A DNA stretch of 27,293 nt. It comes from a virus. This document shows positions 517 to 17,400 of the stretch, piece by piece (position 1 is the first letter of the stretch; every line of letters starts with the position of its first letter). Below the pieces are notes generated by a model that saw nothing but the letters and a program-made list of their open reading frames with translations, was not told where the DNA came from and ran no database searches. The translations under genes and the position numbers were made by a program. Where the stretch lies: positions 1 to 27,293 of the IMG/VR virus record IMGVR_UViG_3300021961_000503; one strand, given 5' to 3'.

Positions 517-858
517 CTATGTTGTAACCGAAGGACTAACTGTAATAATACCCTCAATCACTCTTGTTATGGTACTATCAGATGTTCTTAATATTTCAAC
601 ATCATAGACATATCTGGCAGGTGCGTCTAAATTATTCGTTTGATCGGCAGATAAAGATAGTGTAACCACACCTGTTGTAGGTGAACCTATTGCAGTAGTG
701 ATGATAACTCTTGTTCGAGTAGAGGCAAAACCTCGTGCCATTTTAGACGAGGCCGTGTAACCTGTTAAATCAAATGCGTCACCATTTGAGTCTTTTACGG
801 TAACGTCTGTACTAAATGTGGCGCCTTGTTCAATCGTTAGATGTGCTGTCGCTGCCAT
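517..858 (-). CDS. BppU-N-like baseplate/fibre-base protein
   Basis: This 113-residue all-beta protein starts MAATAHLTIEQGATFSTDVT. Features are the DLTGYTASSKMARGFAS turn, the TGVVTLSLSADQTNNLDAP strand, and an end of RYVYDVEILRTSDSTITRVI followed by EGIITVSPSVT. This order (polar strand, DLTGxT, Ser-rich strand, YVYDVE, TRVxEGxxxVxP) is typical of the small immunoglobulin-like domain that anchors receptor-binding proteins (BppU N-terminal domain) and of similar stand-alone proteins in marine phages. A role at the fibre base is inferred. It overlaps the DUF6447-like gene by 29 bases; AAGGA lies rather far (13 bases) before the ATG. Its stop is followed by a late promoter. Confidence 0.75.
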   Translation of the reverse strand: MAATAHLTIEQGATFSTDVTVKDSNGDAFDLTGYTASSKMARGFASTRTRVIITTAIGSPTTGVVTLSLSADQTNNLDAPARYVYDVEILRTSDSTITRVIEGIITVSPSVTT

Positions 859-1054
859 TGAATTTGTCTAATCCTTCTTTAATTCTATTATTATAATAGT
901 TAGTTAGAACTTCTATCTTTTCTAACTCAATATTGTGTCTTGTTTTAGACACTTGTATTTCTTGTCTAGCAATAATAATATTTTGCAAATCAATGGGTAA
1001 CTTACTCATCTCATAATCTACGCCATCTATATTAATTTTTGTCAAATCAACCAT
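830..1054 (-). CDS. DUF6447-like small protein
   Basis: This 74-residue protein begins MVDLTKINIDGVDYEMSKLP, followed by a long helix (LQNIIIARQEIQVSKTRHNI, then ELEKIEVLTNYYNNRIKEGL) and a polar tail. The short beta hairpin INIDGVDY followed by LP and a charged helix is the DUF6447 pattern seen in phages of marine bacteria. The function is unknown; the helix may form a coiled coil. It overlaps the next gene by 29 bases. The start is fixed by the first in-frame ATG after the promoter, and no ribosome-binding site precedes it. The gene order (small helical protein, then a fibre-base protein) repeats what is seen around 14494. Confidence 0.72.
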   Translation of the reverse strand: MVDLTKINIDGVDYEMSKLPIDLQNIIIARQEIQVSKTRHNIELEKIEVLTNYYNNRIKEGLDKFNGSDSTSND

Positions 1055-1067: not shown

Positions 1068-1733
1068 TTAAACTATACTACTCATATTAAAAGAGTTTAG
1101 TATGTTTTTTTCTACTGCTCTTATATTAATATGAATAAATCTAAAGGGTTCTATTCCGTGATCTACTTGATAAGCGTGGGACAAATACGCAGGAAATAAC
1201 ATCAATAATCCTGGTTTAGGTGTATAGTTTATTAAATCGTTTGCGTTTGATATTTTAGACGAATCTTTTTCTGCAAGTTTTAAAGGTACGTGTGCAGTAC
1301 GAGGATCCTGAAACATAGGCCTAGATGTTTTATCACTTGCTTTTAAAAAGTAAAATCCTGATATGTGATTGTTAGAGTGTGTATGAAACCAATGATGGCC
1401 TGCACCATTAAATGAAAACTCTTGTACCCAACTTTCAGTATAGATAAGATTATATCGACTCATATCATAACCCATATCATCCAATACCCAACGAGATTTA
1501 GTTGCTATGTATTGATGAAACTCAGCAAAATTGGGATCAGGTTCTAAAGGAGAACTATGATAAGTTTGTCCTATATCATTTTTATAACCAACTTGTAATC
1601 TTTTTTTATTATTTTCTTCCTGATCTTTACGAGCTTGTGCAATATAAGGGTCTGAACATTTATTTAAAAAATTAACCCATTCAGGTTTATCTTCATAATA
1701 TACTGGTGAAGAAAAGTATTCTTGTTTATTCAT
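1068..1733 (-). CDS. 2OG-Fe(II) oxygenase-fold protein, HxH type (oxygenase 6)
   Basis: This 221-residue protein has the metal site read as H117 and H119 in GAGHHWFHTHSNN, with the strand HISGFYFLKASD directly after. The distal H186 is in FPAYLSHAYQV and R198 in EPFRFIHINIRA. A flexible segment at 131-170 is longer than in oxygenase 5. The N-terminal half holds the SPVYYEDKPEWVNFLNKC start and a TKSRWVLDDMGYD helix. It is the last enzyme of the cassette. Its stop lies directly against the late promoter of the next operon. The second ligand is again His. I infer an oxygenase of unknown substrate; a catalytically dead binding protein is possible if the HxH site does not hold iron. Confidence 0.8.
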   Translation of the reverse strand: MNKQEYFSSPVYYEDKPEWVNFLNKCSDPYIAQARKDQEENNKKRLQVGYKNDIGQTYHSSPLEPDPNFAEFHQYIATKSRWVLDDMGYDMSRYNLIYTESWVQEFSFNGAGHHWFHTHSNNHISGFYFLKASDKTSRPMFQDPRTAHVPLKLAEKDSSKISNANDLINYTPKPGLLMLFPAYLSHAYQVDHGIEPFRFIHINIRAVEKNILNSFNMSSIV

Positions 1734-1999
1734 TATTCATTTATCCTAGCAACAACTGTATTATATTCTTCTAATACTTTCCAGGTACTTTGATTTTTTT
1801 CTGCGTGTATCATTGTACCAATTCCATCTTCCGAAGGGTAGACAGAAAGTATTTTATCTATATTTATTGCTAATGCTTTACCAAGATAAGGTTGAAACTT
1901 ACTCTCTTGTATAATACTTCCATTAGTAAAAATCTTAAATTTACCTTTTGATTTTTTTACATCTAAAGGTTTTAAATTATTTAAATCAACTTCACTCAT
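1733..1999 (-). CDS. Small FlbD-like protein in the oxygenase cassette
   Basis: This 88-residue protein has a Lys-rich first third (LDVKKSKGKFKIFTNGSII). Residues 40-88 then read as beta strands and a last helix: GKALAINIDKILSVYPSEDG, then GTMIHAEKNQSTWKVLEEY, then NTVVARINE. The order (strand with Asn/Ile, ILSVYP, small turn, strand, W-K-V-xE helix, VVxRI) resembles the short FlbD-type fold found in flagellar operons and as small proteins in phages. That similarity is by eye and weak. There is no catalytic motif. It overlaps oxygenase 6 by one base (TAATG), so the two are probably coupled. It could be a regulator or an accessory subunit of the enzyme beside it; both are inference. Confidence 0.65.
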   Translation of the reverse strand: MSEVDLNNLKPLDVKKSKGKFKIFTNGSIIQESKFQPYLGKALAINIDKILSVYPSEDGIGTMIHAEKNQSTWKVLEEYNTVVARINE

Positions 2000-2004
2000 T
2001 TTAT

Positions 2005-2008
2005 CTCC
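2005..2008 (-). promoter_or_regulatory. Strong ribosome-binding site for the FlbD-like gene
   Basis: GAGGAGAT on the minus strand, five bases before the ATG at 1999, is among the best Shine-Dalgarno matches in the window. It suggests that the small 88-residue protein is well translated. Confidence 0.6.
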
Positions 2009-2025
2009 TCTGTTATATGTATATA

Positions 2026-2643
2026 CTATTTAAATTCTAATATGTATTCTTCTTTTCCTAATTTACCTTTTATCCAAAAATTAAATGCCAATGAATATCT
2101 TGGTTCATTAGATAAATTTTTTAAAACTGAATGAGTTAAATGTGATGGAAACATCACTATCATTCCTTCTTTAACAGGCAAAATATAAGTTTCACCTTGT
2201 AAATTATTACTTTCATCATATTCCATTCTAATTGAATTGTGAAATAGATTAGTATATGAACTACTTTTATGAAATGCAATATCTCCTGAATTTTTAGGAA
2301 CGTGAGTATAATAAACACCACTTAATAATGAATTACCGTGATAATGTTCTTGTGCTTGATCTCCTGGATAATGTATATTAGACCAAGAGTTTTGTAAAAC
2401 AAATTTAATATTTTTAGATAGAATTAAATATTTTCTAGCAAAAGATTCACAATGATTTTCTATATCACTTTTTAAATCAGGCATTTCATTTAACAAATAT
2501 CTATTTAAAGATATATCACTATTACCAATGTGTGTTCTTCTATATTCAACATCTTCAATATATTTTTTCCATTCGTTTTTTACAGGTATTTCTCCTTCAT
2601 AAATGGGTATAGGCCAAAGATTATGTATTTTAAATTCAGGCAT
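2026..2643 (-). CDS. 2OG-Fe(II) oxygenase-fold protein, TIGR02466-like, HxH type (oxygenase 5)
   Basis: This 205-residue protein fits the TIGR02466/PF13759-like pattern. It has IPIYEGEIP near the N-terminus, NSWSNIHYPGDQAQEHYHGN leading to the metal site, then LLSGVYYTHVPKNSGDIAF. The ligands read as H100 and H102, with distal H171 (FPSHLTHSVLKN) and R182 (EPRYSLAFNFW). As in oxygenases 1 and 6, the second position is His and not Asp. Its start overlaps the halogenase stop by eight bases, so the two are coupled. A TTTAAATAG sequence spans its stop codon, but as a late promoter it has a mismatch. Members of this family occur in many marine phages without a known substrate. Base composition is as AT-rich as the halogenase, so the pair may have been acquired together. 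Confidence 0.82.
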   Translation of the reverse strand: MPEFKIHNLWPIPIYEGEIPVKNEWKKYIEDVEYRRTHIGNSDISLNRYLLNEMPDLKSDIENHCESFARKYLILSKNIKFVLQNSWSNIHYPGDQAQEHYHGNSLLSGVYYTHVPKNSGDIAFHKSSSYTNLFHNSIRMEYDESNNLQGETYILPVKEGMIVMFPSHLTHSVLKNLSNEPRYSLAFNFWIKGKLGKEEYILEFK

Positions 2644-4093
2644 TTGTATTTCTAATTATATTTAAATAATCTTTATGACCTATTGTGATGTTATTAAAAC
2701 CCTCATAGTTATCTTTTATTTTTTTTTCAACATCTTTTTTTATATGTTCATTTACATTTTCATACATATTTTTTATATTTTTTATATTTAACAAATTCAA
2801 ACCATACAGCACTTGTACAAAATTAGCTTCAAAAAATAAATAATAGTTTGTTCCTTTAAAGTCCTCTAATATAGGTAATCTAGTTTGCCATCTTTCTAAA
2901 TTAGTTTTTAAAGTATCAGGTAATTCAATTGTTTTTAAATTTTTCCAAAAAGATGTATCTTCTTTTTTTGTTATATAATGTAAAACTATAAAATCTCTAA
3001 TGTTATTCATTATTAAAGTCATTTTATTATTAAAGTCATCAATAGATAATTGATTATAATTATCAAAATAATGTGTGAATAAAAATAATTGATAAATTGA
3101 TGTACCTATGGAAGTAGCTTCTAAAGGTTCTACAAAATTAGCACTTAATCCTACTGCTAAACAATTTTTAATCCAAGGTTTGTCTAAACAACCAGGATCA
3201 AACTTAACCTGTCTTCCAACCTCAATTTCGTGTCCCATATATTTTTCTACTTCTTGTTTAGCTTGATCTGCGTTAATATAATCACTATCAAATATGTAAC
3301 CGTTACCCCAACGACCATATGTAGGAATGTGCCAAGTCCAACCATAGTCCATAGCTTGCGCTACTGTGTATAAATTATATTCATCGGTATCTTTTGTAGG
3401 AAAAGCAATTGCCTCTTTCATTTTTAAATATTTACCATATGATTGCCATTTAGCTCCTAGTTTTGAAATAAGTAGTTTTTTAAATCCTGTACAATCAATA
3501 TAAAAATCTGAAGAATAATTATTTTTTTCACCTTTTAAATTTGATATTTCACCTTGTTCATTTAAATTCACATCTAATATTTCATCTTCTATAACATCTA
3601 TTCCTCTTTCAACAGATTTTTTATGTAAAAAATCATTTAACTTAAAAGTATTAAAATGATATTGATTTACAGGACTATTATTTTCTTTAAGTAAATTTTT
3701 AGATATTTTATTTTTGATAAAATTTAAATCATTGAATTTAAAGTTTTCAACATCGTCAGCAACTAATTTCATATAAGCAATAAGATGTTGAGCATTTTTT
3801 ATTTCGTATAAATCTGTTACGTTGTGAAAATAATCTTTATCGGACCAGTTTTTAAACATTACTCCACCTTTTAAAGTAGCATCACATTCTTTTATAATTT
3901 CTTTATAACTTATACCCACAACATCCATAAAAATCTTCCAGTGTTCAGTTGAGCCTTCTCCAACACCTATAATACCAATTTTATTAGATTTAACAACTTT
4001 AATTTCTAATTTAGGATATGTTGTTTTTAAAATTAAAGCAGACACATATCCTGCTGTACCTCCACCTACGATAATAATTTTATTTGTTTTCAT
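2636..4093 (-). CDS. Flavin-dependent (tryptophan-type) halogenase, viral VirX1-like
   Basis: This 485-residue protein has the landmarks of FADH2-dependent halogenases. The FAD dinucleotide motif GGGTAG is at 10-15, GVGEGS at 43-48, and the halogenase signature GWTWHIP at 251-257. K75 (DATLKGGVMFKNW) aligns by eye with the catalytic lysine K79 of PrnA, and E325 (FVEPLEATSIG) with PrnA E346. Such enzymes make hypohalous acid at the flavin and pass it through a tunnel to the lysine, then to an electron-rich substrate. A cyanophage relative, VirX1, is known to halogenate and iodinate many small substrates. Reduced FAD must come from a reductase, and none is in the window. The gene is very AT-rich, abuts oxygenase 4 and overlaps oxygenase 5 by eight bases. 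All key residues are kept, so activity is likely; the substrate is unknown. Confidence 0.88.
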   Translation of the reverse strand: MKTNKIIIVGGGTAGYVSALILKTTYPKLEIKVVKSNKIGIIGVGEGSTEHWKIFMDVVGISYKEIIKECDATLKGGVMFKNWSDKDYFHNVTDLYEIKNAQHLIAYMKLVADDVENFKFNDLNFIKNKISKNLLKENNSPVNQYHFNTFKLNDFLHKKSVERGIDVIEDEILDVNLNEQGEISNLKGEKNNYSSDFYIDCTGFKKLLISKLGAKWQSYGKYLKMKEAIAFPTKDTDEYNLYTVAQAMDYGWTWHIPTYGRWGNGYIFDSDYINADQAKQEVEKYMGHEIEVGRQVKFDPGCLDKPWIKNCLAVGLSANFVEPLEATSIGTSIYQLFLFTHYFDNYNQLSIDDFNNKMTLIMNNIRDFIVLHYITKKEDTSFWKNLKTIELPDTLKTNLERWQTRLPILEDFKGTNYYLFFEANFVQVLYGLNLLNIKNIKNMYENVNEHIKKDVEKKIKDNYEGFNNITIGHKDYLNIIRNTNA

Positions 4094-4756
4094 TTATCCA
4101 TTTGGTATTGCATAATAAAAATGTGTTATGGTATAACGGCCGTATCCTATTTCTTTAGGTTGTGTATGAAATTTAACAGGACTTACTCTATGTAAATAAC
4201 AACAAGGAAAGAAAATAGCACGATTATGTTTTAATTTTATTTCGTGGCCTGATTCAGGAAAATCAAAATCACCACCATTAAACAAACGAGGTTCTCTTAC
4301 CATCCATATACAGTTTGTCCATAAAAATGTATCGTGGTGTGGTTCGTAATGGTCATCTTCTTCATAATAAGATATTAAAGTTGAGTCACTATTTGAAGAA
4401 GTAAAAGAACGTCCATAAGGCATACATTGTTCTATAATCTTATGAAATTCAGGTGTTCGTTGCTTATACATACTGTTAAAAATTGCTGATTTAGATAAAC
4501 CTTCGTTTGTATAGTATTCACCTGTATAAAATCTATATGCCTTACTTCGACTTGAACCATCTGAATTACGTGCCACAATTGTATTTTCAGCACGATCAAT
4601 TTTTTCTCTAGGCATACTTGAATAGTAATCTAATTCTTTCCAAACAGCCTTTTCTTCATTTGGTGTATACCAATTGTCTATGACTATAAAAGGAAAAGTA
4701 GGATTATCTTTAACAATCTGAACCTTCCAGTTTTGTTTAATCTGTTCACCTGACAT
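4094..4756 (-). CDS. 2OG-Fe(II) oxygenase (oxygenase 4)
   Basis: This 220-residue protein has a clear site: H140 and D142 in YEPHHDTFLW, H189 in FPCCYLHRVSPV, and R207 in GYGRYTITHFYY. The GGDFDFPESG strand (161-170) and NRAIFFP strand (178-184) have the order expected for a prolyl-hydroxylase-like core. The N-terminus FIVIDNWYTPNEEKAVWKEL resembles the entry helix of phage oxygenases. There is no signal peptide. The halogenase ATG follows its TAA with no gap (TAAATG), so the two are probably translationally coupled and may act on the same target or pathway. No ribosome-binding site is obvious before its own ATG, which suggests re-initiation from oxygenase 3. Confidence 0.83.
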   Translation of the reverse strand: MSGEQIKQNWKVQIVKDNPTFPFIVIDNWYTPNEEKAVWKELDYYSSMPREKIDRAENTIVARNSDGSSRSKAYRFYTGEYYTNEGLSKSAIFNSMYKQRTPEFHKIIEQCMPYGRSFTSSNSDSTLISYYEEDDHYEPHHDTFLWTNCIWMVREPRLFNGGDFDFPESGHEIKLKHNRAIFFPCCYLHRVSPVKFHTQPKEIGYGRYTITHFYYAIPNG

Positions 4757-4762
4757 AATTAA

Positions 4763-5611
4763 TTAATATATAATTTTTTTAGGTACTTGTCTATTTAAAT
4801 CTATATTAGTTTCTTGTTGTGTATGTTCAGGATTATCATTTTTATTTAATGCTTCCTGACTTCTAAAGCTACCTGGTAAACCAAGCACAGCTCTTCCATC
4901 ATTTGCAATTGCATAAGGACCGTTTTTATCATTGTAATGTAAAAATACTTGTGCGTGATTTGTGCCCCAAAATGGTTCTCTCCAATGTTCTACTTTACAA
5001 CCACGATAGATAATCATATCACCTGGTTTCATATGTATCGGTATTTCTTTACCGTTTTCTTCTTGTACAAACATAGGCCAATCCCAATCAGGATATTTGT
5101 TTAAATCTACGTTAGATATATTATAACCTAAACATAATGTTGTTGAAATTTCACAACTTGGTCGATCTCTATGTCTTTTTAATTCTGTGCCTGTTGTGTA
5201 AAGTCTATGATATGAGTATGTAGGTATCAATTCTTTACCTGTAAGTGTACACATTTGTTCTGTTCCTAAACTCAATAGAGTATCAAAGATAGGGTCACCA
5301 TATTTACTGAAATCACCAGGAGCTTGTTTATCAGTAAATGTGCCGTGTATTTCTTCATCATAATTACCTTTACCAAATTTTTCATCAAGGTAATTTAATC
5401 TTGCGGCCTCTAATTGTACGTGATGATATAATAGATTGGCCATATTCTGATCTATAAATCTATCTATCTTTACCCAATGATGTTCTTCGAAAAACTTAGC
5501 CGCTGGGTGTACTGTGGCTGCGTTTAAAGCAGGATTACCTTGTAATAAGGCTTCTGCGTTTTTCTTTTGATCGTCTGTTAGACTATCCCAATTTGCTATT
5601 TTATTATTCAT
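4763..5611 (-). CDS. 2OG-Fe(II) oxygenase-fold protein (oxygenase 3)
   Basis: This is a 282-residue protein if the ATG at 5611 is used. Residues 135-155 (YHRLYTTGTELKRHRDRPSC) hold the HxD pair H147 and D149. H209 in GCKVEHWREPF is the distal ligand. The usual arginine about ten residues later is not obvious: the segment reads WREPFWGTNHAQVFLHY, so R211, H219 or Q221 may bind 2OG instead, or the cosubstrate contact is unusual. KPGDMIIYRGC just before it is a typical strand of this fold. The first 50 residues are helical with a HPAAKFFEEHHWVKIDRFI segment. The stop is followed after six bases by the ATG of oxygenase 4. It is probably active as an oxygenase; the substrate is unknown. Confidence 0.8.
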   Translation of the reverse strand: MNNKIANWDSLTDDQKKNAEALLQGNPALNAATVHPAAKFFEEHHWVKIDRFIDQNMANLLYHHVQLEAARLNYLDEKFGKGNYDEEIHGTFTDKQAPGDFSKYGDPIFDTLLSLGTEQMCTLTGKELIPTYSYHRLYTTGTELKRHRDRPSCEISTTLCLGYNISNVDLNKYPDWDWPMFVQEENGKEIPIHMKPGDMIIYRGCKVEHWREPFWGTNHAQVFLHYNDKNGPYAIANDGRAVLGLPGSFRSQEALNKNDNPEHTQQETNIDLNRQVPKKIIY

Positions 5612-5620
5612 ACTCAATTG

Positions 5621-5624
5621 CTCC
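5621..5624 (-). promoter_or_regulatory. Ribosome-binding site GGAG deciding the start at 5611
   Basis: AAAGGAG lies nine bases before the ATG at 5611 but only three before a TTG at 5617. The ATG is therefore the likely start. Confidence 0.6.
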
Positions 5625-5631
5625 TTTATTC

Positions 5632-5639
5632 TATTTATC
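5632..5639 (-). promoter_or_regulatory. Late promoter variant GATAAATA upstream of oxygenase 3
   Basis: This reads GATAAATAG on the minus strand, three bases after the stop of oxygenase 2. Downstream genes through 2026 show no other clear element, so it may drive oxygenase 3, oxygenase 4, the halogenase and oxygenase 5 as one unit. Confidence 0.5.
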
Positions 5640-5641
5640 CA

Positions 5642-6424
5642 TTATTTAAATGGTTGTCCTAGTGACCATAACACTAAAGAATATCTTGTTCCTTTTGTAA
5701 CAGGTGTAACTTGATGATACACGTAAGAGGGAAATACAATGATTGATCCTTGTGGTCGTATCTCAACACATTCGTGGAATCTTTGTCCACTTGCGTGTGG
5801 TCCAAAGTCAAACTTTAAATTACCACCTTCATATTCACCTGGTTTATTTAAATTAATAGTCATTGATAACTTACGTATCTTACCTATCATATCTTTATTG
5901 TCTGTATATCCTCTTGGATATTGTCCTTTTGAATCTCTTGGAGTTACACCAGGAATGGCTCTTTTATATGCACCAAAATGACAACTATTGCCATCTGCGT
6001 GCCAACCATAGAATTGATTTAAACCGTACTTGGTAAATTGAAAAGACTCACTAAAATCCCATTCATATCTCCAACCAGCCTCCTGATTTGCACGTCTTAA
6101 AAATGGGTGTATTAAATCATACATCCATCTATCATCAAACCAACAGACTTCACTATCTCTTACAAATCTTTCATTTTCAACATCAGCGTCTGATATACCT
6201 ATTTCATTTTTTATATCTTCAATGGTTTTATCTGCTTGAGGTAAAACATTTTTACCTTCTCTTTCAAATTTTTGTTTATGATTATCTCCAAATGTAGTGG
6301 CTTCGGTTGTGCCACCTCTTTTTTTGATTTCATCTAGTCTGGCAGTACCCATATCAATAATACGTTGACATTGATCTGGTGTTAAGGCCTCTTTAAACCA
6401 AAAATACGAATTACGAACTTGCAT
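5642..6424 (-). CDS. 2OG-Fe(II) oxygenase, prolyl-4-hydroxylase/PiuC-like (oxygenase 2)
   Basis: This 260-residue protein has the full HxD...H...R signature. H142 and D144 are in FYGWHADGNS, H237 is in FPSYVYHQVTPV, and R247 is in KGTRYSLVLW. The N-terminal region (FKEALTPDQCQRIIDMG) is typical of prolyl hydroxylase-like phage enzymes. Residues 195-210 (GEYEGGNLKFDFG) form the strand that normally precedes the distal histidine. Such enzymes couple decarboxylation of 2-oxoglutarate to hydroxylation of a protein or small-molecule substrate, using Fe(II) and oxygen. Relatives are common in marine T4-like phages, and their substrates are largely unknown. It has its own late promoter and the strongest ribosome-binding site in the cassette. 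All catalytic residues are present, so an active enzyme is likely. Confidence 0.85.
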   Translation of the reverse strand: MQVRNSYFWFKEALTPDQCQRIIDMGTARLDEIKKRGGTTEATTFGDNHKQKFEREGKNVLPQADKTIEDIKNEIGISDADVENERFVRDSEVCWFDDRWMYDLIHPFLRRANQEAGWRYEWDFSESFQFTKYGLNQFYGWHADGNSCHFGAYKRAIPGVTPRDSKGQYPRGYTDNKDMIGKIRKLSMTINLNKPGEYEGGNLKFDFGPHASGQRFHECVEIRPQGSIIVFPSYVYHQVTPVTKGTRYSLVLWSLGQPFK

Positions 6425-6456
6425 TATATACTCCTTATACTATAAGTTATTATATC

Positions 6457-6464
6457 TATTTATG
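6457..6464 (-). promoter_or_regulatory. Late promoter variant CATAAATA upstream of oxygenase 2
   Basis: This reads CATAAATAG on the minus strand, in the 47-base gap after oxygenase 1. It would give a leader of about 26 bases carrying a strong TAAGGAGT ribosome-binding site six bases before the ATG at 6424. Confidence 0.5.
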
Positions 6465-6471
6465 GACTTTT

Positions 6472-7161
6472 TCATATCACTATAAAATTTCCTGACACAC
6501 TTATACGTTCTGCGTCAACCCAATATGAAGAAACATAGTGTTGTAAATTATTTGGAAAAATAAACATTAAATTTTCATAAGGTTGTACAGGAAATTCATT
6601 TCCTCTCAATGGAGTAATTGCTTCACCATTAATGAAACTTAATTGTCCTGCTCTTTTAGTGTTACTATCTGCCTGTACTGTAAATATTTCTTTAGGGACT
6701 TGACAAAATATAACAAACGATAATTTACCTGTATGTGTATGAGGCGGATTAAAATCGTGTTTTTGAGAAAAGTTTATCCATAGTGTATCTAATTTTAAAT
6801 TTCCTTGTCTATGTTTTTTTCTATCGTATTGAACATCTAAAATAGCATCAATACCTTCATAATCAGATCCATATTGTTGATACAATCCATCAAAAAATCT
6901 TTGAATATATGTTTTTAAATAAGGTTCTACTTTAAGTAGATATTCTTCTTTGTAGTGATATGAACGGCCGTATTTTAGATTACCAGCAAGACGTGGATTC
7001 CAGTCATCTTCTTGTATATTAAGTTTACGACCTTCTTCTATTAATTCTTTTGTGAATTTTGAATCAACTTCGGTTTGAAATATAGGGGGACTAAAAGGAT
7101 ATAATATCTTGTCGCCTGTTTGAGTTTGATAATATGCTACGTTTGTTATAAAGTCAGTCAT
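6472..7161 (-). CDS. 2OG-Fe(II) oxygenase-fold protein, HxH type (oxygenase 1)
   Basis: This 229-residue protein has the double-stranded beta-helix pattern of 2-oxoglutarate and Fe(II)-dependent oxygenases. The metal site is read as H141 and H143 (NPPHTHTGKLSFV) with the distal H208 (FPNNLQHYVSSYW). R219 (ERISVSGNF), 11 residues later, is the likely 2OG-binding arginine. The second ligand position holds His instead of the usual Asp, as I recall for the TIGR02466/PF13759-like subfamily. The N-terminal 80 residues hold IFQTEVDSKFTKELIEEGRK. It is the first gene of the enzyme cassette, after a 48-base AT-rich gap without a clear late-promoter element. AAGGTGA lies just before the ATG. The substrate is unknown. 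It is cytoplasmic, as no signal peptide is seen. Confidence 0.75.
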   Translation of the reverse strand: MTDFITNVAYYQTQTGDKILYPFSPPIFQTEVDSKFTKELIEEGRKLNIQEDDWNPRLAGNLKYGRSYHYKEEYLLKVEPYLKTYIQRFFDGLYQQYGSDYEGIDAILDVQYDRKKHRQGNLKLDTLWINFSQKHDFNPPHTHTGKLSFVIFCQVPKEIFTVQADSNTKRAGQLSFINGEAITPLRGNEFPVQPYENLMFIFPNNLQHYVSSYWVDAERISVSGNFIVI

Positions 7162-7209: not shown

Positions 7210-8877
7210 TTAGTATTGCACTATTACAATTCCTTTACCACCTGCACCACCGTCTGAATCTGCTAAATTACCTGGCCAAGGATGACCTGCAGGACCTACA
7301 TCTCTACTTCCACCACCACCACCACCTTTATTTGCTTGTCCAGCTTGTCCACCTACACCTTGAGCGCTTGGGCTAGGATTATATCCACCATTTCCTCCAC
7401 CACCTTGTCCACCTGTTGATCCTCGACATATAGTTTGAGCACCACCACCTCCACCTCCAGCATAATAAACAGAAGTTATACCATCCGCAATTGTATAAGC
7501 TCTACCTATACCACCTGGTCCAGCTTGACCTGTAGGAGAACCTGGATTTATAACAGGACTACCTGCAGCGCCAGCACCACCACCACCACCACCTTCAGCA
7601 CCACAAGGATTTCCTCCTGCTCCTCCAGCATTACCAAATCCATATGTGCCTGAATCACCTCCTTGAATTGGTTGAGTAGCACTACCACCAGATGTAGGAT
7701 ATGGTACACTACCATTCATAGCACCACCGCCACCTGAACCTCCAGCACCTCCACATCTACCAGGAACGTTATAACTACCTCCACGTCCACCACCTTTTGC
7801 AGTTAATGTACCAAATATTGAATCTTGTCCAGCAACAGCTGCATTAATAGGTTCTCCGCCAGCACCACCGCAACCAACTGTAACTGAAACTGTACCGCCT
7901 GGAGTAACAGGATATCCTGGTCTATAAATTAATCCACCAGCACCACCAGCACCTCCAACTTGTCCTCCACCTCCGCCTCCACCAGCAACCACTAACACAT
8001 TAACGGAAGTAACTCCTGATGGTACACTAAAGGTACCAGATGAAGTAAATGATTGTACATTGTAAGGTGTTTCTGTAATAGAAAAAGCACGACTGCTTAT
8101 ATTTGAATTTGCGTCTGATGCTCTTAACGTAAAATTTGTAGTTGTGTTGCTTGAAATATTGGTTGTTAAAGTTCCCGTAATTCTATATTTTGAAACACCA
8201 TCTTCATTTACTGTTGTTGCAGACAATCCAGCAGGTAAAGCACCTGATATAATTTCAAAAGTTACGTTAGAAGCTGATTCAGGATCATATGCTTGAATGT
8301 CTATTGTAGAAATTGTAGTTTGTTCCTGAAAAGAACCAACTGAACCTGAAGCTGTATTAAATATTGGAGAAGCATCTACGTTGATTTGATTTCTTAAAAT
8401 TGCTTGTGTACCATTTGAACCATATATTCTTACATCATAAGGTTCATTAGCATTTGATAAACTTGATTTAGCGATAACTGCTGTAATTTGAGTAGCACTA
8501 TCTACTGTTACCGTATCAAAATCTACTTCAGATCCTCCGTCTGTAACTAAAACAGCAGTAGCACCTGTTAAATTTGTTCCTGTTATTGTAAAAGTATGAT
8601 TTCCTGTACCATCACCTGTTAAGGCGTTAGTTGGTGATACGGAAGATAAGGTGACAGCTTGCGTTCCTACATTACTTGCAGCAATTTTTTTAAGTATACC
8701 AGCACTTGAATCATAAATTAAAATATAATCACTTGCAGCAGCTGCTTCACTTAATTCTGTTTGACCTGTAATAGAAGTGATATCTAAATGTTCATCACTA
8801 ATTACGTCATCACCTAGTTTAGTAGCGTCAATTGCGTCAGCGCCTATACCTGTTTTTGTTATCTTTGTAAGTGCCAT
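7210..8877 (-). CDS. Glycine-rich tail-fibre adhesin 3 (555 aa)
   Basis: This is the third paralogue. It starts MALTKITKTGIGADAIDATK, with a shaft-type DAIDATKLGDDVISDEHL segment, then the YILIYDSSAGILKKI linker at 51-65. The IPT/TIG-like domain is at 76-168 (LSSVSPTNALTGDGTGNHTF), the Ig/cadherin-like domain at 170-269, and the glycine-rich tip at 274-555. The tip holds RPGYPVTPGGTVSVTVGCGG, the YTIADGITSVYYAGGGGGG motif, and ends GGKGIVIVQY. Conserved cysteines sit in the loops (VGCG, GRCGG, NPCGAEGG). The likely role is receptor recognition at a fibre tip. GGN codon runs appear as CCA/CAC triplet tracts on the plus strand and could change length without a frameshift. AAAGGAAAG precedes the ATG. 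It is the last adhesin before the enzyme cassette. Confidence 0.82.
   Translation of the reverse strand: MALTKITKTGIGADAIDATKLGDDVISDEHLDITSITGQTELSEAAAASDYILIYDSSAGILKKIAASNVGTQAVTLSSVSPTNALTGDGTGNHTFTITGTNLTGATAVLVTDGGSEVDFDTVTVDSATQITAVIAKSSLSNANEPYDVRIYGSNGTQAILRNQINVDASPIFNTASGSVGSFQEQTTISTIDIQAYDPESASNVTFEIISGALPAGLSATTVNEDGVSKYRITGTLTTNISSNTTTNFTLRASDANSNISSRAFSITETPYNVQSFTSSGTFSVPSGVTSVNVLVVAGGGGGGGQVGGAGGAGGLIYRPGYPVTPGGTVSVTVGCGGAGGEPINAAVAGQDSIFGTLTAKGGGRGGSYNVPGRCGGAGGSGGGGAMNGSVPYPTSGGSATQPIQGGDSGTYGFGNAGGAGGNPCGAEGGGGGGAGAAGSPVINPGSPTGQAGPGGIGRAYTIADGITSVYYAGGGGGGAQTICRGSTGGQGGGGNGGYNPSPSAQGVGGQAGQANKGGGGGGSRDVGPAGHPWPGNLADSDGGAGGKGIVIVQY
7575..7593 (-). repeat. In-frame (GGT)n triplet tract in adhesin 3
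   Basis: The plus strand reads CAC repeated about six times, which encodes a run of glycines on the minus strand. A second tract lies at 7310-7326. Loss or gain of a unit would change tip length by one glycine without a frameshift. Confidence 0.6.
7982..8076 (-). repeat. Dispersed repeat copy A inside adhesin 3
   Basis: These 95 bases encode the start of the glycine-rich tip (FTSSGTFSVPSGVTSV region). They match 10087-10181 over the full length with few differences, and 12223-12296 over the first 74 bases. The match is close at the DNA level, so it could support homologous recombination between adhesin genes. Confidence 0.75.
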
Positions 8878-8888
8878 TTACTTTCCTT

Positions 8889-9329
8889 TTACTTTTCTTC
8901 TGGTATCTCTTTAATCCTTTGTACTATTCTTTGTATCATTTCATCAAGGTAGTCAAGGTCGGCCGAGAAACCAATGTGAGGAATACGTATTTTTTTACCA
9001 TTCTCATCTTTACTTTCTCTAAAACCTTGCACACTTGTACCAATTCTTTCATTTTTAGTGAATTGGTGCCATAACGAAGTTTCAATGGGTTTCATAGGTA
9101 TTTGTTCTATTTGAAACCTTGTCTTTAATTCTTCAGCAAATATTGAACAAGGAACCATTCCTCTTGCGTTCAATAAATCAATAATTTCTTTTACTACTTT
9201 TTTATCACTATCAGTAATATTACCGTAGTCATAATTTGGTTGTATTGCCTCACCTGTCATATTAGAGGCCATTTTACCATCAGTACCCTCATTAGGGTTC
9301 TTTACTCCAAACTTTTCTTCTTCAGCCAT
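8889..9329 (-). CDS. Conserved-type acidic protein between two adhesins, function unknown
   Basis: This 146-residue protein begins MAEEEKFGVKNPNEGTDGKM. It is unlike its neighbours: rich in Glu, Lys, Asp and Ile with a mixed alpha/beta look. Residues 40-60 hold a helix (DKKVVKEIIDLLNARG), 65-80 hold a second (FAEELKTRFQIEQI), and the C-terminus is a long amphipathic helix (LDYLDEMIQRIVQRIKEIP). There is no signal peptide, membrane segment or known catalytic motif. It shares a late promoter with adhesin 3, whose ATG follows its stop after 11 bases. Phage adhesins often have a small dedicated assembly or chaperone protein next to them, and that is the most plausible idea here, but nothing in the sequence proves it. 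I do not recognise a named family. I used the ATG start rather than the TTG six bases upstream. Confidence 0.7.
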   Translation of the reverse strand: MAEEEKFGVKNPNEGTDGKMASNMTGEAIQPNYDYGNITDSDKKVVKEIIDLLNARGMVPCSIFAEELKTRFQIEQIPMKPIETSLWHQFTKNERIGTSVQGFRESKDENGKKIRIPHIGFSADLDYLDEMIQRIVQRIKEIPEEK

Positions 9330-9339
9330 TTTCAATTTA

Positions 9340-9343
9340 CTCC
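9340..9343 (-). promoter_or_regulatory. Ribosome-binding site GGAG deciding the start at 9329
   Basis: AAAGGAGT on the minus strand lies 10 bases before the ATG at 9329. A TTG at 9335 would be only 4 bases away, which is too close for normal initiation, so the ATG is preferred. Confidence 0.6.
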
Positions 9344-9367
9344 TTTAAAATAATGTTTATATAATAC

Positions 9368-9375
9368 TATTTATT
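9368..9375 (-). promoter_or_regulatory. Late promoter variant AATAAATA upstream of the 146-residue gene
   Basis: On the minus strand this reads AATAAATAG. It overlaps the stop codon of adhesin 2 by one base. It lies about 38 bases before the next ATG and gives a normal leader with a clear GGAG, so it probably drives the 146-residue gene and adhesin 3. Confidence 0.5.
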
Positions 9376-10913
9376 TAGTATTTAACGATTACGATTCCTT
9401 TTCCGCCTTGCCCTTGAGCAGTTCCGCCAACAGGTTGACCTCCACCACCTCCGCCTTTATTTGCCTCACCAGCTCTAGGAGAAGGACCAACTCCGTCTCC
9501 TCCACCACCACAACCTCCTAAACGTGATGTAGCAGGACCTAGTTCACCATATCCGCCTCCACCACCAGCATAATACACTGGAGTTGCACCATCAGCAATT
9601 GTATAAGCTTTTCCTGCACCACCATAACCATATAAACCTGAAGTAGGTGATTGATCGTTACCTCCTGGACCTCCTCCAGCACCAGCACCGCCACCGCCAC
9701 CAGCACCACTACCTGAAGGCCCTGGACCAGCACCGCCTGGGGTACCAAATCCATAAGTACCAGAATTACCTGGTTGAGTAGGTTGAGTTGCAGGTCCGCC
9801 TGGTGCACCTCCACCATCTCTACCTGCACCACCGCCTGAACCACCTGTTTGACCTGGACTACTAATGTGATGTCCTCCACCACCCCCACCTTTAGCAGTC
9901 AATGTTCCAAATCCTGAATCTTGTCCTATAATACCGTGAGCAGCACTAGGTGAATTATCTGTAACAGTAGAGTGAGCCCCACCACAACCAACTGTAACTG
10001 AAACTGTTCCGCCTGGTGTAACAGGATAACCTGGCATATAAATTAATCCTCCAGCACCACCGCCGCCAACTGAAGCCCCACCTCCTCCAGCAACTACTAA
10101 CACATCAACGGAAGTAACTCCTGATGGCACACTAAAGGTACCAGATGATGTAAATGATTGTACATTGTAAGGTGTTTCTGTTATTGAAAATGCTCTTGTG
10201 CTTGTATTTGAATTTGCGTCTGACGCTCTTAAAGTAAAGTTTGAAGTTGTATTACTTGAAATATCAGTCGTTAAAGTTCCTGTAATTCTATATTTTGAAA
10301 CGCCATCTTCATTAACGGTAGTTGCTGATAAACCAGCAGGTAAAGAGCCTGATATAATTTCAAAAGTTACGTTACCAGTAGATTCTGGATCAGCGGCCAC
10401 AATGTTTATAGTAGAAATAGTAGTTTGTTCCTGAAAAGAACCAACTGAACCTGAAGCAGTTTGAAAAACTGGTTGTGCGTTTATGTTAATTTGATCTGCT
10501 AATGTAGATGATAATCCTGTAGCAGAAATTACTTTTACATCATAAGGTTCATTATCATTAGATAAACTTGAAACAGCAATCACTCCTGTTATTTGTGTGC
10601 TATTATCTACTGTTACCGTATCAAAATTTACTTCAGCCCCAGCAGCAGTTAATAATTTAGCACTTGCACCTGAAAAACCTGTTCCTGTAATAGTGAAAGT
10701 TGCATTACCTGTACCATCTCCTGTGTTAACGTTAGTAGGTGATACACTTGATATTAAAGGAACGTTTAATAAATTTACTTGTGATATTTTTTTAAGAGTA
10801 CCAGTGCTTGCGTCATAGATAAGTGTATAATCTCCTGAAGCAACATTTGCCCCCAAATCAGTTAATCCTGTTACTATACTTTCGTCTAAATTTGATTGTC
10901 TTACTTTTGCCAT
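9375..10913 (-). CDS. Glycine-rich tail-fibre adhesin 2 (512 aa)
   Basis: This is the shortest of the three adhesins. It lacks an N-terminal TGDGST module and begins MAKVRQSNLDESIVTGLTDL. The linker TLIYDASTGTLKKI is at 30-43, the IPT/TIG-like domain at 53-146, the Ig/cadherin-like domain at 147-246, and the glycine-rich tip at 251-512. The tip opens VQSFTSSGTFSVPSGVTSVD, includes MPGYPVTPGGTVSVTVGCGG and VYYAGGGGG, and ends GGKGIVIVKY. Over the 130 residues from the Ig-like domain into the tip it differs from adhesin 3 at only 13 positions, while the glycine-rich loops differ widely. That is the pattern of a duplicated receptor-binding protein with variable loops. Its start is five bases from a GATAAATA late promoter with no ribosome-binding site. 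Confidence 0.82.
   Translation of the reverse strand: MAKVRQSNLDESIVTGLTDLGANVASGDYTLIYDASTGTLKKISQVNLLNVPLISSVSPTNVNTGDGTGNATFTITGTGFSGASAKLLTAAGAEVNFDTVTVDNSTQITGVIAVSSLSNDNEPYDVKVISATGLSSTLADQININAQPVFQTASGSVGSFQEQTTISTINIVAADPESTGNVTFEIISGSLPAGLSATTVNEDGVSKYRITGTLTTDISSNTTSNFTLRASDANSNTSTRAFSITETPYNVQSFTSSGTFSVPSGVTSVDVLVVAGGGGASVGGGGAGGLIYMPGYPVTPGGTVSVTVGCGGAHSTVTDNSPSAAHGIIGQDSGFGTLTAKGGGGGGHHISSPGQTGGSGGGAGRDGGGAPGGPATQPTQPGNSGTYGFGTPGGAGPGPSGSGAGGGGGAGAGGGPGGNDQSPTSGLYGYGGAGKAYTIADGATPVYYAGGGGGYGELGPATSRLGGCGGGGDGVGPSPRAGEANKGGGGGGQPVGGTAQGQGGKGIVIVKY
10087..10181 (-). repeat. Dispersed repeat copy B inside adhesin 2
   Basis: This is the counterpart of 7982-8076. Both span 95 bases without a gap in my alignment and share long identical words, for example actaaaggtaccagatga. 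It marks the junction between the Ig-like domain and the variable glycine-rich tip. Confidence 0.75.
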
Positions 10914-10918
10914 ATCTA

Positions 10919-10926
10919 TATTTATC
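10919..10926 (-). promoter_or_regulatory. Late promoter variant GATAAATA upstream of adhesin 2
   Basis: On the minus strand this reads GATAAATA and shares its first G with the TAG stop of the 198-residue gene. Only five bases lie between it and the ATG of adhesin 2, and no ribosome-binding site is present. At T4-like spacing the transcript would start at or next to the A of the ATG. Confidence 0.55.
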
Positions 10927-11522: not shown

Positions 11523-11531
11523 TTAATTCCT

Positions 11532-13445
11532 TTAATACCTTACTATTACAATTCCTTTACCGCCACTACCAGAACCAGGAGCAGCATCTCTAACACCGCC
11601 TGATCCTCCACCTCTATTTGCAGTAGCATTTCCTGAACCAGGAGAAGGTCCTCCGCCAGCAGTTCCACCGCCTTGGCCGCCTTGTCCTGCTGTACCACAA
11701 CCACCATTATTTCCTCCTCCACCACCAGCATAATACACTGGAGTTGTTCCGTCAGCGATTGTATAAGCTCTTCCTACACCTCCTTGGCCTCCTGTAGTAG
11801 TGCTTGTAGTACCTCCAACTGCGCCAGCACCTCCTCCTCCACCACCACCTTGTGCTGGACCACCAGTACCACCGTTATTTCCAAATCCATAAGTACCAGA
11901 ATCTCCTGGTTGCGTAGGTTGAGTTGCTGTACCACCTGATCCAGTTACTGCGCCTCCACCACCCGATCCACCTGGAGTAACTGGATTTGAACCAGAATCT
12001 TTTCCTCCTGCACCACCACCTTTTGCAGTTAATGTACCAAATACTGAATCTTGACCTGAATTTCCTGCACTATCAGGTGTGCCTTGAGGAGCAGCTCCAC
12101 AACCAACGGTAACTGAAACTGAACCACCTGGTGTAACAGGGAATCCTGGTCTATAAATTAATCCACCAGCACCTCCACCACCTGTACCTGAACCTGAATG
12201 AGCTTTTGCACCTGATCCTCCTCCAGCAACCACTAACACATCAACGGAAGTTACGCCTGATGGTACACTAAACGTACCAGATGAAGTAAATGATTGAGTT
12301 ACAGGAGCTAAAATTGTAATAGTAAATTGTCTTGTACTTGTATTTGACGCTGCGTCAAAAGCTCTTATAGTAAATGTAGATGTTGTATTTCCACCTACAG
12401 CACTAAATCCTGAAATTTGATATTTTGAAACACCATCTTGGTTAACTGTGGTTGCACTAGCACCAGTTGGCAAAGAACCTGAATACAGTTCAAAAGTTAC
12501 GTTACCAGCAGATTCAGGATCAGCAGCAACAACTGTTAAAGTTGTAGAGCTTCTTGTACTATCGGTAACAGTACCTAAAGACCCAGCAGCAGTTTGAAAC
12601 ACTGGTTGTGCGTCAATAGAAATTTGATTTGTTAAAGAAGATGATAAAGCACTACCATTGGTTACTTTAATTCCATAATTTTCATTTGCATTACTTAAAG
12701 ATGATTTAGCAATCACTCCTGTAATTTGTGTAGATGAATCTCTTGTAACAGTATCAAAAGAAACTTCGGCACCTGCAGATGTTAAAAGTTTTGCTGTAGC
12801 ACCTGAGTCAAATCCTTCTCCTGTAATAGTCAAAGTAGCATTACCTGTACCATCACCTGTTGTAACGTTAGTAGGCGATACACTTGAAATGGTTGGAACA
12901 GCTAGAGCAACATATTGTCTTTTAATTTTTTTAAGAGTACCAGCACTTGCGTCATAGATTAAAAGATAATCTGTGTTTGCGGCCTCTTCAGATAATTCTG
13001 TATTACCTGTAATAACAGTTGTTGCAAAATGTTCATTACTGATTGCTTCATCGGCAATTTTAGCATTAGTAACAGCATCAGCATAAATTTTTGCTGTTGT
13101 AACGGCCGTGTCTTGTAATTTTGCAGTTGTAACTGTATTGTCTCCAATACCTGCAACGGCCTCTATTCTTCTTGGATTGATAACATAGATAGATTGACTT
13201 GCTTCTGGAGCAGTATTAAATGTAATTCTTCTTAAATTATTTGATCCGTCAAGGCCAACTGTATAAGACGCACCAGAACCTGGTTCTTGTCTTACGTTAT
13301 CTACAAATACCTGAATATCATTTTCACCACCAGCAGGTATATCAGTTGTAATATCAAAAGTGGTAGTAGAACCATCGCCTGTAAAGGTGTATTTTGAAGC
13401 AACACCTGATAAGACTTGTTCTGGTCCTTTTCCTACATATGCCAT
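11532..13445 (-). CDS. Glycine-rich tail-fibre adhesin 1 (637 aa)
   Basis: Modular adhesin. Residues 1-18 are a short MAYVGKGPEQ anchor. Residues 19-90 are a TFTGDGST beta module. Residues 104-137 are a TAKLQDTAVTTAKIYADAV shaft repeat. About 159-174 is the LLIYDASAGTLKKI motif shared with its paralogues. Residues 183-277 look like an IPT/TIG domain (ISSVSPTNVTTGDGTGNATL). Residues 280-378 look like an Ig/cadherin-type domain (ADPESAGNVTFELYSGSLP). From 384 to the end is a glycine-rich domain that opens SFTSSGTFSVPSGVTSVDVL and closes GGKGIVIVRY. Glycine-rich C-termini of this kind serve as receptor-binding tips in T-even-type adhesins. A strong AGGAG lies 10 bases before the ATG. The best reading is a host-receptor adhesin; the receptor is unknown. 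Confidence 0.82.
   Translation of the reverse strand: MAYVGKGPEQVLSGVASKYTFTGDGSTTTFDITTDIPAGGENDIQVFVDNVRQEPGSGASYTVGLDGSNNLRRITFNTAPEASQSIYVINPRRIEAVAGIGDNTVTTAKLQDTAVTTAKIYADAVTNAKIADEAISNEHFATTVITGNTELSEEAANTDYLLIYDASAGTLKKIKRQYVALAVPTISSVSPTNVTTGDGTGNATLTITGEGFDSGATAKLLTSAGAEVSFDTVTRDSSTQITGVIAKSSLSNANENYGIKVTNGSALSSSLTNQISIDAQPVFQTAAGSLGTVTDSTRSSTTLTVVAADPESAGNVTFELYSGSLPTGASATTVNQDGVSKYQISGFSAVGGNTTSTFTIRAFDAASNTSTRQFTITILAPVTQSFTSSGTFSVPSGVTSVDVLVVAGGGSGAKAHSGSGTGGGGAGGLIYRPGFPVTPGGSVSVTVGCGAAPQGTPDSAGNSGQDSVFGTLTAKGGGAGGKDSGSNPVTPGGSGGGGAVTGSGGTATQPTQPGDSGTYGFGNNGGTGGPAQGGGGGGGAGAVGGTTSTTTGGQGGVGRAYTIADGTTPVYYAGGGGGNNGGCGTAGQGGQGGGTAGGGPSPGSGNATANRGGGSGGVRDAAPGSGSGGKGIVIVRY
12223..12296 (-). 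repeat. Dispersed repeat copy C inside adhesin 1
   Basis: This is a shorter and more diverged 74-base counterpart of copies A and B. The similarity stops just before the Ig-like domain, where adhesin 1 differs from the other two. Confidence 0.7.
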
Positions 13446-14495: not shown

Positions 14496-17400
14496 TTATA
14501 CCGCCAATGCAATTGCTCGTAAATCTTTTAAACGAGCAGGTAGTGCCGAGTTAGTTCCTTTAAATACAATCTTAATTTGGAAAGATGTGAAACCAGTTAA
14601 ATCACTTGCACTAAATTTGTGATCTTTAAAATCTAAATCCAAAACTACATCACCATTGGAAGGTAATACAGTTACATCTGGACTTCCATCTGTATTAAAT
14701 GGAGTAAATTCTATATCTTGTATTCTTCTTGTTTCTTCACCGCCTGATAATCTGTAATATGCTTTGATAGATGAAGTGGATCGTACACTTGCAGCAATTC
14801 TTACTTCTAATGCAGTTGAAGGATTAGCAAGATTAACTGGTTTAGTTATGTAAGCACCAGCAGATGAACCACCTTCTATTGCAGTATCATCTTCGTAATC
14901 TACGGTGTTAGTAATTTTAGCAACTATTTTAGAACCACTTGCAGGAGCAGAACCCATAGTTAAAGTTGTTCCTGAAACTGTAAAGTCATCAACTGGTTGT
15001 AATTTTTTACCATCTTTTCTAATAGACAATAAATGAACACTTGAAGGTGTTCCAGATAAAGTAAATGCAACTGTGGATCCATCTCCTGTAAATGTATCGG
15101 TAGATGAAACAGTAGGATTATTTAATCGGTTTGAAATTGCAAAAGCATTAACTCGTTTTAAATCTATAACTGGAGATAATTTAGAATTAGTTGAACTGAT
15201 AGTAATATTGGTTACAATAGATTTACTACCAGACATTTCGTTTGTTTCATTTATTTCACTTGCAACTAATCTTGGATTATCAAAATAAATGTTATCACCT
15301 AACACAACACTTTCGGCCGCAGTTGCAGCCTGTAAACTAAATGCAGTTTCAGAACCATTAACAGATTTACCTGATGTGGTTCTTAATGTAGATGTTAAAG
15401 TTGTGCCTGGGTGAACTACGTGTCCAATTTGTAGTTGTAATACATCAAACAATCTATTTTGTGTAGCAGTTACAGTTGAACCACCTACATCTCCTGTAGC
15501 ATTTGCTGTTCCAGAAGTAGTTATATCATAACTATCTAAAGTGATATTTGAAATAGTTGTATAATCTCCATTGATATCTGAATGTGCAATACCATTGTAA
15601 GTACCTGAAGAAATTCCTGCAATAGTTACGTTATCACTTGTACTATGCAATCCGTGATTTTTATGGAATACTCTTACGATACTAGAACCATTAAATGTTC
15701 TGATTGGATTACTTGCCAATGTTTTACTTGATAATGTTGCGTTTGCAAGTGTTAAAGTTCCTGAACTTGTTGTATCAAAATCTGCACGTTTCATTACAAA
15801 TTTTAAATCTTCCATTTGTTCAGCAGTCCAAGTACGATTGTTAGCAGATTTAAATAATACTCCAACCGCAGGTTGAGCAGATACGGTTCTATCTGAACCA
15901 ATAACTGTATCACCTAATCGTGCAACATAAACTGTATAATCAGCAGAATCAGAATATAATACTAACGCATATTCTGTTTTCTCTTTTAAATAAACTGGTG
16001 AATTAAATGTAAATGTAGTTGCAGTTGAACCATCTGTACTTGTATTAACAGAACTAGGATTTAACCATTTAGTAGAAAAAGGTACAACTGAATTACCTGG
16101 GTAACCATTGACCATATTTCTTATTTCTGCTTTAACAGGAATAGTAGATGATTTTGTTGCAAAATAAGCATTTACACTTGTTACAAACACTCCATCCTCA
16201 TCATCAATCATAAAAGATTGTGCTAAAGGATCTCTACGGCCTATTGTTGTAGAAGTTTGCCTAGAAATGGATCTTTGTTCAGTAGTTGTTTGTCTAACTG
16301 TTTGTGCCTCTCTAGTAGAAACAATTGCTTCTTGTACAGTTTCTAATAATCCTTTTGCGTCATAATCAGCTTCTGCTGAAGTAGCAACTGCTGTTCTATC
16401 TGAGGAATTAGTAGATGAACTTGTTAATCTGAATATTCTCTTACCTGTTCTCCATCTTGGATTAGATGAAACATTTGGATCAGGAATAGAAAATACTCCT
16501 TTAACATAACCATTAGTATTTGTATTTAAATTACCACCTAATGAACCACCGTCTGGTGTAACATAACTTGTAACATTAATATTATCAAAGTAAGGATAAA
16601 CTCTTGTATTAGGTCTTAATCCATATCCTTCAAAAGTAATATCTCTACTTCTTACAAATGGAACAAATGCAACTGAAATAACTCTATTACCTAAACTTTG
16701 TCTAACTGTTTGTGGAATGATTACAGAACGAATACCTGATCTTGTTTGTACAACATCGGCACTTGTTGTTTGAACTAAACTGTTACCTTGCCAACTTGTA
16801 TCGGTTCTTGGATTTCCTGACCATTGATCTTGCCATTCATTCCATTCAGTACCGACAGGAATTTCTGAAATACTTGTATTATCTAAACCAGCATTAATTG
16901 CCAAGTTGTCAAATGTACCATTTACATTCACCACTAATTCTGGTGCAACTTGTGTTTCTTTCCACTCATCTACTGGTGGATTTAAATCTATATTACCAAT
17001 CCAATCAAAGATTAAGAATGGATTTAAATTTTCTGTTTTTGTAGCATAAGGTTGTTCAAATAAAGTTACTTCATCATAAGGTAAAGTTATTAGATCACCT
17101 GTTAATTGATAATTTGCAGCCGTTCTATCAGCGGCCACAATTGCAGTTAAATCATCATCAACTTCTTCTAAAGCAATAACATCTTCATTGAATGGTGTTC
17201 TTGCCTCACCTCGGCCTCTATCAATAGATAATTTGTAATCATTATTTCCTACATCTCCAACATTGTGTCCAGAGAAGTTATCAACAACGAAACCATTTTT
17301 AAATCTATCAAAACCATCTGCGTCTTGTATTTGTAAAGATTGTGCGTCTGCCTCTAATAAAGATAATTGAGTATAGTATTCTAAATTTCTAATTCTACCT

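Follow-up and report, generated by a model that had tools for sequence, protein, structure and literature searches.

A Conserved Oxygenase Cassette With an Optional Halogenase in the Tail-Fibre Region of a Pelagimyophage-Like Virus

Cassette Anatomy

The virus record IMGVR_UViG_3300021961_000503 is a whole IMG/VR fragment of 27,293 bases, here called the window. It carries a cassette of eight co-directional minus-strand open reading frames, running from 7161 to 1068, that encode six predicted 2-oxoglutarate (2OG)-Fe(II) oxygenases (OxA to OxF), a flavin-dependent halogenase (HAL), and a small protein, s (Table 1). An earlier sequence-only reading placed these genes between adhesins and further fibre genes, and glycine-rich tail fibres do flank the cassette on one side and a fibre-assembly-like gene on the other. 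The genes were also described as mostly touching or overlapping; four of the seven junctions overlap or lie within 6 bp, and the other three gaps measure 24, 26, and 47 bp. The anatomy of the cassette is secure.

Table 1. Features of the cassette and its surroundings, from high to low coordinates
Feature	Position	Strand	Evidence
VrlC-like baseplate protein, bordering the pelagimyophage host recognition cluster	14496..20723	-	Match to HTVC008M VrlC; PMC7029224
Third glycine-rich fibre (PF21722, phrog_2295)	11532..13445	-
Second glycine-rich fibre (PF21722, phrog_2295)	9375..10913	-
Glycine-rich tail fibre (PF21722, phrog_2295), directly upstream of cassette	7210..8877	-
OxA, 2OG-Fe(II) oxygenase, PF13759/TIGR02466 type, H141xH143...H208, R219	6472..7161	-	Pfam 9e-12; residues invariant in 13 relatives
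T4-type late promoter element ATAAATA, upstream of OxB	6457..6463	-	Present no more than 80 nt ahead of OxB in 9/19 relatives
OxB, 2OG-Fe(II) oxygenase, PF13640, PKHD/P4H-like, H142xD144...H237, R247	5642..6424	-	Pfam 8e-13; residues invariant
T4-type late promoter element ATAAATA, upstream of OxC	5632..5638	-	Not conserved in relatives
OxC, P4H-fold 2OG oxygenase, H149xD151...H211	4763..5617	-	AlphaFold2, Foldseek
OxD, 2OG-Fe(II) oxygenase, PF13640, H140xD142...H189	4094..4756	-	Pfam 4e-7; residues invariant in 35 relatives
HAL, flavin-dependent (tryptophan-type) halogenase	2636..4093	-	PF04820 3.5e-101
OxE, 2OG-Fe(II) oxygenase, PF13759/TIGR02466, H100xH102...H171, R182	2026..2643	-	Pfam 2.5e-23; NCBIfam TIGR02466 above cut-off
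s, 88-aa orphan, cassette-specific, mostly beta	1733..1999	-	12-member alignment; AlphaFold2 pLDDT 68
OxF, 2OG-Fe(II) oxygenase, PF13759/TIGR02466, H117xH119...H186, R198	1068..1733	-	Pfam 6e-13
sm830, small conserved gene at cassette end, late element directly upstream	830..1054	-	Element in 16/16 relatives
L-shaped tail-fibre-assembly-like gene "517" (phrog_3304)	517..858	-

All six oxygenase-fold genes seen earlier are borne out, five by Pfam and OxC by AlphaFold2 and Foldseek. OxA, OxE, and OxF pass the Pfam cut-off for PF13759, and OxB and OxD pass that for PF13640; PDB profile matches of OxB are the PKHD-type hydroxylases 3dkq and PiuC. The predicted iron-ligand motif is an invariant HxD...H in OxB, OxC, and OxD and an invariant HxH...H in OxA, OxE, and OxF, which thereby depart from the classical HxD/E...H triad. 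Since HxH is shared by 2rg4 and 3bvc, two solved PF13759 relatives of OxA, OxE, and OxF, it is probably a family trait. Alignments of relatives show the predicted catalytic residues conserved in all seven enzymes. The ratio of nonsynonymous to synonymous substitution (dN/dS) lies between about 0 and 0.30 in the oxygenases and s and is about 0.08 in HAL, for which one pair was available; by this measure, all testable cassette genes are under purifying selection. No fusion ("Rosetta stone") proteins joining cassette enzymes occur in the fetched loci.

The small gene s had been called FlbD-like, an identity that was dropped for want of profile or fold support: s has no FlbD match in Pfam or NCBIfam, and Foldseek returns weak PH-like matches (best E 0.013) from a model of moderate confidence. 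Among the fetched loci, s orthologues occur only in cassettes, and no homologue was found in isolate phages.

Conservation Across Relatives

Locus scans with OxC, HAL, OxD, and the neighbouring 517 gene yielded several hundred loci, which are best-hit rather than random samples. Colinearity was scored in the 31 loci that have OxD together with two or more further oxygenase or s families. The gene order OxA-OxB-OxC-OxD-(HAL)-OxE-s-OxF is strictly colinear in 27 of the 31. In three of the four exceptions the sole difference is a second, distant halogenase several kb downstream, which brings the colinear loci to 30/31. Independent phages number fewer than the loci, L094 and L184 being one contig and L186 a near copy of L185. 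Scattering of these genes among relatives, the outcome that the sequence-only reading had named as speaking against a single system, is excluded. Judged by gene order, the cassette genes are one conserved unit.

Several relatives add further 2OG-like genes within the cassette, and in one, L018, a NodU/TobZ-type carbamoyltransferase (L018:13325-14920) directly follows OxE. In several relatives a small basic protein, not present in the window, lies between fibre and cassette, usually just before OxA (L014:540-788, L015:690-905, L187:389-619, L194:3252-3509, L196:7339-7596).

Fibre genes accompany these oxygenases elsewhere. In two pelagiphages with short tails, HTVC023P and HTVC033P, OxB-OxF-OxC lies just downstream of phrog_2295 glycine-rich fibres, and the HTVC023P OxF homologue is 49% identical. 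In a SAR11 prophage (L317:7857-9100, SAG-MED28 contig), tail fibre genes are followed shortly downstream by OxC-OxB and then by an endolysin gene. Because OxB and OxC lie near fibres in these three viruses too, the oxygenase-fibre association, as read from gene neighbourhoods, crosses unrelated virion types. A glycine-rich fibre hidden Markov model run with the bias filter was discarded, as low-complexity bias removed true matches, and its counts are descriptive only.

The Halogenase and Its Slot

HAL carries every motif first noted in it: GGGTAG (residues 10-15) and GWTWHIP (251-257), which fit the GxGxxG and WxWxIP signatures of the family, and K75 and E325, the predicted catalytic Lys and Glu. 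The last two are invariant in 141 relatives. Its PDB matches include tryptophan halogenases (E down to 2e-69) and MibH (PDB 5uao), a peptide halogenase. Weak matches to the LodB/QhpG maturases were also obtained. A flavin reductase partner is usual near flavin-dependent halogenases but not strictly defining; none is found among the annotated window genes, and a host reductase may serve HAL.

The halogenase is optional. It occupies the slot between OxD and OxE in the window, the L094/L185/L186 lineage, L015, and L178, and is absent from most other loci. In the halogenase tree, the window and L094 form one clade and L178 and L015 another, split by a very long branch. Because two distant clades share it, the slot, on the evidence of this tree, has received a halogenase on at least two occasions, through insertion or replacement in place. 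Such repeated recruitment argues for functional coupling between halogenase and oxygenases.

Halogenases and 2OG enzymes also meet outside this slot. In L094, a further halogenase and its 2OG partner (L094:17341-20703) lie between gp15-type and terminase genes, and another 2OG gene precedes the large terminase gene. A similar pair, with a halogenase of that clade, occurs in HTVC008M. In a different phage group (L096-L107, L110), 2OG oxygenases are interleaved with several divergent halogenases, of which 20 kb can hold as many as five; glycine-rich proteins are also present in some of these contigs.

OxC and the Ferrochelatase Label

OxC has no Pfam match and belongs to PHROG families named ferrochelatase (phrog_2954 and phrog_3531). 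Its AlphaFold2 model (predicted local distance difference test, pLDDT, 88.8) has as its best Foldseek match the Pseudomonas putida prolyl 4-hydroxylase (P4H), an EF-Tu prolyl hydroxylase (4e-11), and also matches HIF PHD2. All 44 of 44 OxC relatives match phrog_2954, and 0/44 match the ferrochelatase Pfam family; H149, D151, and H211 are invariant. The prolyl-hydroxylase-type predicted fold, the lack of ferrochelatase Pfam matches, and the invariant HxD...H speak strongly against ferrochelatase as the identity of OxC, which was rejected, and the published phage "ferrochelatase" phrog_2954 is very probably another 2OG oxygenase. Two published ecological interpretations depend on the ferrochelatase label (PMC9599517, PMC11561400).

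Both phrog_2954 and phrog_3531 (4763-5617 in the window) appear to be 2OG oxygenase families. OxC homologues also occur in Lysobacter and other gammaproteobacterial genomes (L325, L329, L336-L338, L308, L318), and those inspected have no obvious phage neighbours. A second label may be a misnomer too: Mosig_00058 (L010:17699-18208), inside the oxygenase cluster of Pelagibacter phage Mosig, is annotated as DNA endonuclease V and has no Pfam match, and the window's OxE weakly matches phrog_274, "endonuclease V" (3e-4), so that this gene may be another oxygenase.

Late-Type Promoter Elements

The sequence-only reading regarded the cassette as late-expressed and pointed to late elements at 6457 and 5632. 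Both are present, so that two elements of the T4 late-gene type, NATAAATA upstream on the coding strand, lie inside the cassette. Over the whole window ATAAATA is not enriched (14 against 16.6 expected), and 13 of the 14 copies are on the coding strand. The spacers (573 bases) hold 11 sense and 0 antisense copies against 1.1 expected (0/2000 shuffles). A late element precedes both sm830 and the 221 gene in every relative tested. Because sense elements are enriched in spacers and conserved upstream of OxB and sm830, late expression of the cassette is likely. Transcriptomics of HTVC027P has been published (PMC12753301); the main text gives no timing for the 2OG gene of that phage.

Genomic Setting

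The window is, by protein identity, a pelagimyophage-like T4 relative closest to Pelagibacter phage Mosig, since one of its baseplate proteins is 67% identical to that of Mosig and 50% to that of HTVC008M. No close DNA match was found among phage records. The main genes are all on the minus strand. In order of decreasing coordinate, the genes ahead of the cassette are gp25, gp6, baseplate wedge genes, VrlC, small structural genes, and three glycine-rich fibres; after it come sm830, 517, 221, and the beginning of a further fibre-like gene.

In pelagimyophages, the hypervariable region between VrlC and gp14, with its tail fibres, forms the host recognition cluster (PMC7029224). The window has VrlC upstream and the fibres following; the far border falls outside it and is visible in Mosig. 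The cassette thus lies within the tail-fibre and host-recognition region. The three fibres (7210-13445) are paralogues that share a terminal domain. The slot upstream of the 517 gene holds islands with radical S-adenosylmethionine (radical-SAM) and other modifying enzymes in L251, L254, L258, L268, L270, L271, L273, and L287. No RNA elements or tRNAs were found within the window, and the sole match in a defence-system search was to a generic 2OG model.

Possible Functions of the Cassette

The cassette enzymes probably share one job, and what that job might be is a matter for weighing. Tentatively, and with somewhat less than even confidence, we favour a late-expressed, modular system for oxidative, sometimes halogenating, post-translational tailoring of a tail-fibre protein. 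The enzymes would be made together with the tail fibres, and the oxygenases would hydroxylate residues of the adjacent fibre polypeptide in succession. HAL, where present, would use reduced flavin from the host to halogenate an aromatic residue on that target, and the modification might alter adhesin stability, receptor choice, or antigenic surface. Fibre-protein tailoring is preferred because a fibre neighbour recurs across virion types, late elements are present, and OxB and OxC have protein-hydroxylase relatives. Precedents at the peptide level are MibH, the weak maturase matches to LodB/QhpG, and, as mentioned in PMC9301287, hydroxyproline and a prolyl hydroxylase of viral origin.

Several observations weigh against this reading. 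Glycine-rich fibres stand beside the 517 gene with no oxygenase at all in L232, L237, L242, L244, and L290. In other phages the same slot carries radical-SAM, TauD, Asp_Arg_Hydrox, epimerase, methyltransferase, and sulfotransferase genes, cargo that looks like metabolite or glycan chemistry. The tail regions of marine T4-like phages are hot spots for metabolic gene insertion (PMC2984593, PMC7029224). The proline motif of podophage fibres, PPxxPPQG, is absent from the window's fibres and uncoupled from oxygenase presence, and prolines in the glycine-rich domain were dropped as a candidate substrate of OxB and OxC. The earlier proposal of a single oxidation and halogenation system used in virion assembly therefore holds in part: the conserved unit, the likely late-type control, and the fibre region stand, whereas the virion-protein substrate is a proposal, with the alternative cargo and the oxygenase-free fibres speaking against it.

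That cargo is also what speaks for tailoring of a small molecule or host-surface glycan, in which the enzymes would act jointly on an amino-acid- or sugar-derived product, such as a secondary metabolite, capsule, or O-antigen, for example to exclude competing phages. Tryptophan halogenases act mostly on free tryptophan, and the L018 cassette includes its carbamoyltransferase. A cyanophage cluster of halogenase, 2OG, and carbamoyltransferase genes has been proposed to perform metabolite or capsule chemistry (PMC7824862). Yet the window cassette has no scaffold-making enzyme (no glycosyltransferase, ligase, nonribosomal peptide synthetase, or epimerase), protein hydroxylases are the nearest relatives of the oxygenases by fold or profile, and late-type control and the fibre neighbour are conserved across virion types. 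We regard this alternative as rather unlikely.

Another alternative is a loose collection without joint function, in which auxiliary metabolic genes share a hypervariable island but each acts on a host target of its own, such as EF-Tu, ribosomal proteins, or the 2OG pool. Scattered 2OG genes are numerous in marine T4-like phages (PMC3037559), and S-SCSM1 has 24 of them (PMC9602691). The region is known to be hypervariable (PMC7029224), the cassette gains and loses additional 2OG genes, and the closest solved structure to OxC is an EF-Tu prolyl hydroxylase. Such a collection is nevertheless improbable, since as many as eight genes keep nearly the same order in phages that have diverged, halogenases of two clades share one slot, and the cassette's spacers contain late elements. 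An iron or haem system, in which OxC would be a ferrochelatase partnering the 2OG enzymes as published for pelagiphages on annotation and co-location (PMC9599517, PMC11561400), is scarcely credible given the predicted fold, invariant motif, and Pfam results for OxC, even with haem oxygenase and bilin reductase genes adjoining the Mosig cassette.

If fibre-protein tailoring is correct, marine phages might possess a multi-step line for hydroxylating the adhesins of their own tail fibres, with halogenation added in some lineages, and this would be the first virion-protein halogenation system; this larger claim is speculative and on balance doubtful. Receptor-binding surfaces would then be chemically diversified. 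Marine phages commonly encode 2OG oxygenases and halogenases that lack an explanation and are usually classed as metabolic genes. Strict synteny, late-type elements, repeated halogenase recruitment, and the nearness of fibres in unrelated virion types open the question of their function to proteomics on cultured Mosig, HTVC008M, and HTVC023P. Separately, the predicted fold of OxC bears on a phage "ferrochelatase" that has been interpreted ecologically (phrog_2954; PMC9599517, PMC11561400).

Comparison With Known Systems

The statement in the sequence-only reading that no phage pathway of such composition had been described was too strong. Phage 2OG clusters, phage halogenases, and one halogenase-2OG cluster with another reading are already known: co-located 2OG genes have been published in pelagiphages (PMC9599517), and a cyanophage cluster combines a halogenase, several 2OG enzymes, and carbamoyltransferase (PMC7824862). 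No description of the eight-gene conserved order, the repeated halogenase slot, or the ferrochelatase correction was found in the open-licence papers searched, and on hydroxylated phage fibres these held nothing beyond remarks.

The closest relative is Pelagibacter phage Mosig EXVC030M (MT647606, genes 55-60), which has the order OxB-OxC-OxD-OxE behind a glycine-rich fibre and an 8889 homologue, between fibres and neck genes. This locus differs in lacking the halogenase, s, OxF, and OxA; the gene annotated endonuclease V lies between OxC and OxD, and haem oxygenase and bilin reductase follow. HTVC008M (KC465899) likewise clusters orthologues of OxB, OxC, and OxE-type oxygenases and has a 2OG-halogenase pair in its structural module, but order and strand differ, and its halogenase, of another clade than HAL, lies between the small and large terminase subunit genes.

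In podopelagiphages of the HTVC023P type, the genes published as "2OG + ferrochelatase" (PMC9599517) are an orthologous OxB-OxF-OxC triplet near a glycine-rich fibre; OxD, s, and a halogenase were not detected there, and OxC was read as ferrochelatase. The cyanophage S-SSM6a-type cluster (PMC7824862) shares with the window a halogenase and several 2OG/double-stranded beta-helix enzymes in one phage cluster. Unlike the window, it has carbamoyltransferases, a methylase, and phosphatases, and it is described as biosynthetic, with no tie to tail fibres; its carbamoyltransferase and methylase are absent from the window, and one relative, L018, has a carbamoyltransferase in its cassette. The viral halogenase VirX1 (PDB 6qgm), from a cyanophage, resembles HAL in being a phage-encoded enzyme with the flavin-dependent halogenase fold but is distant from it in sequence (7e-41, near the weakest of 30 PDB matches).

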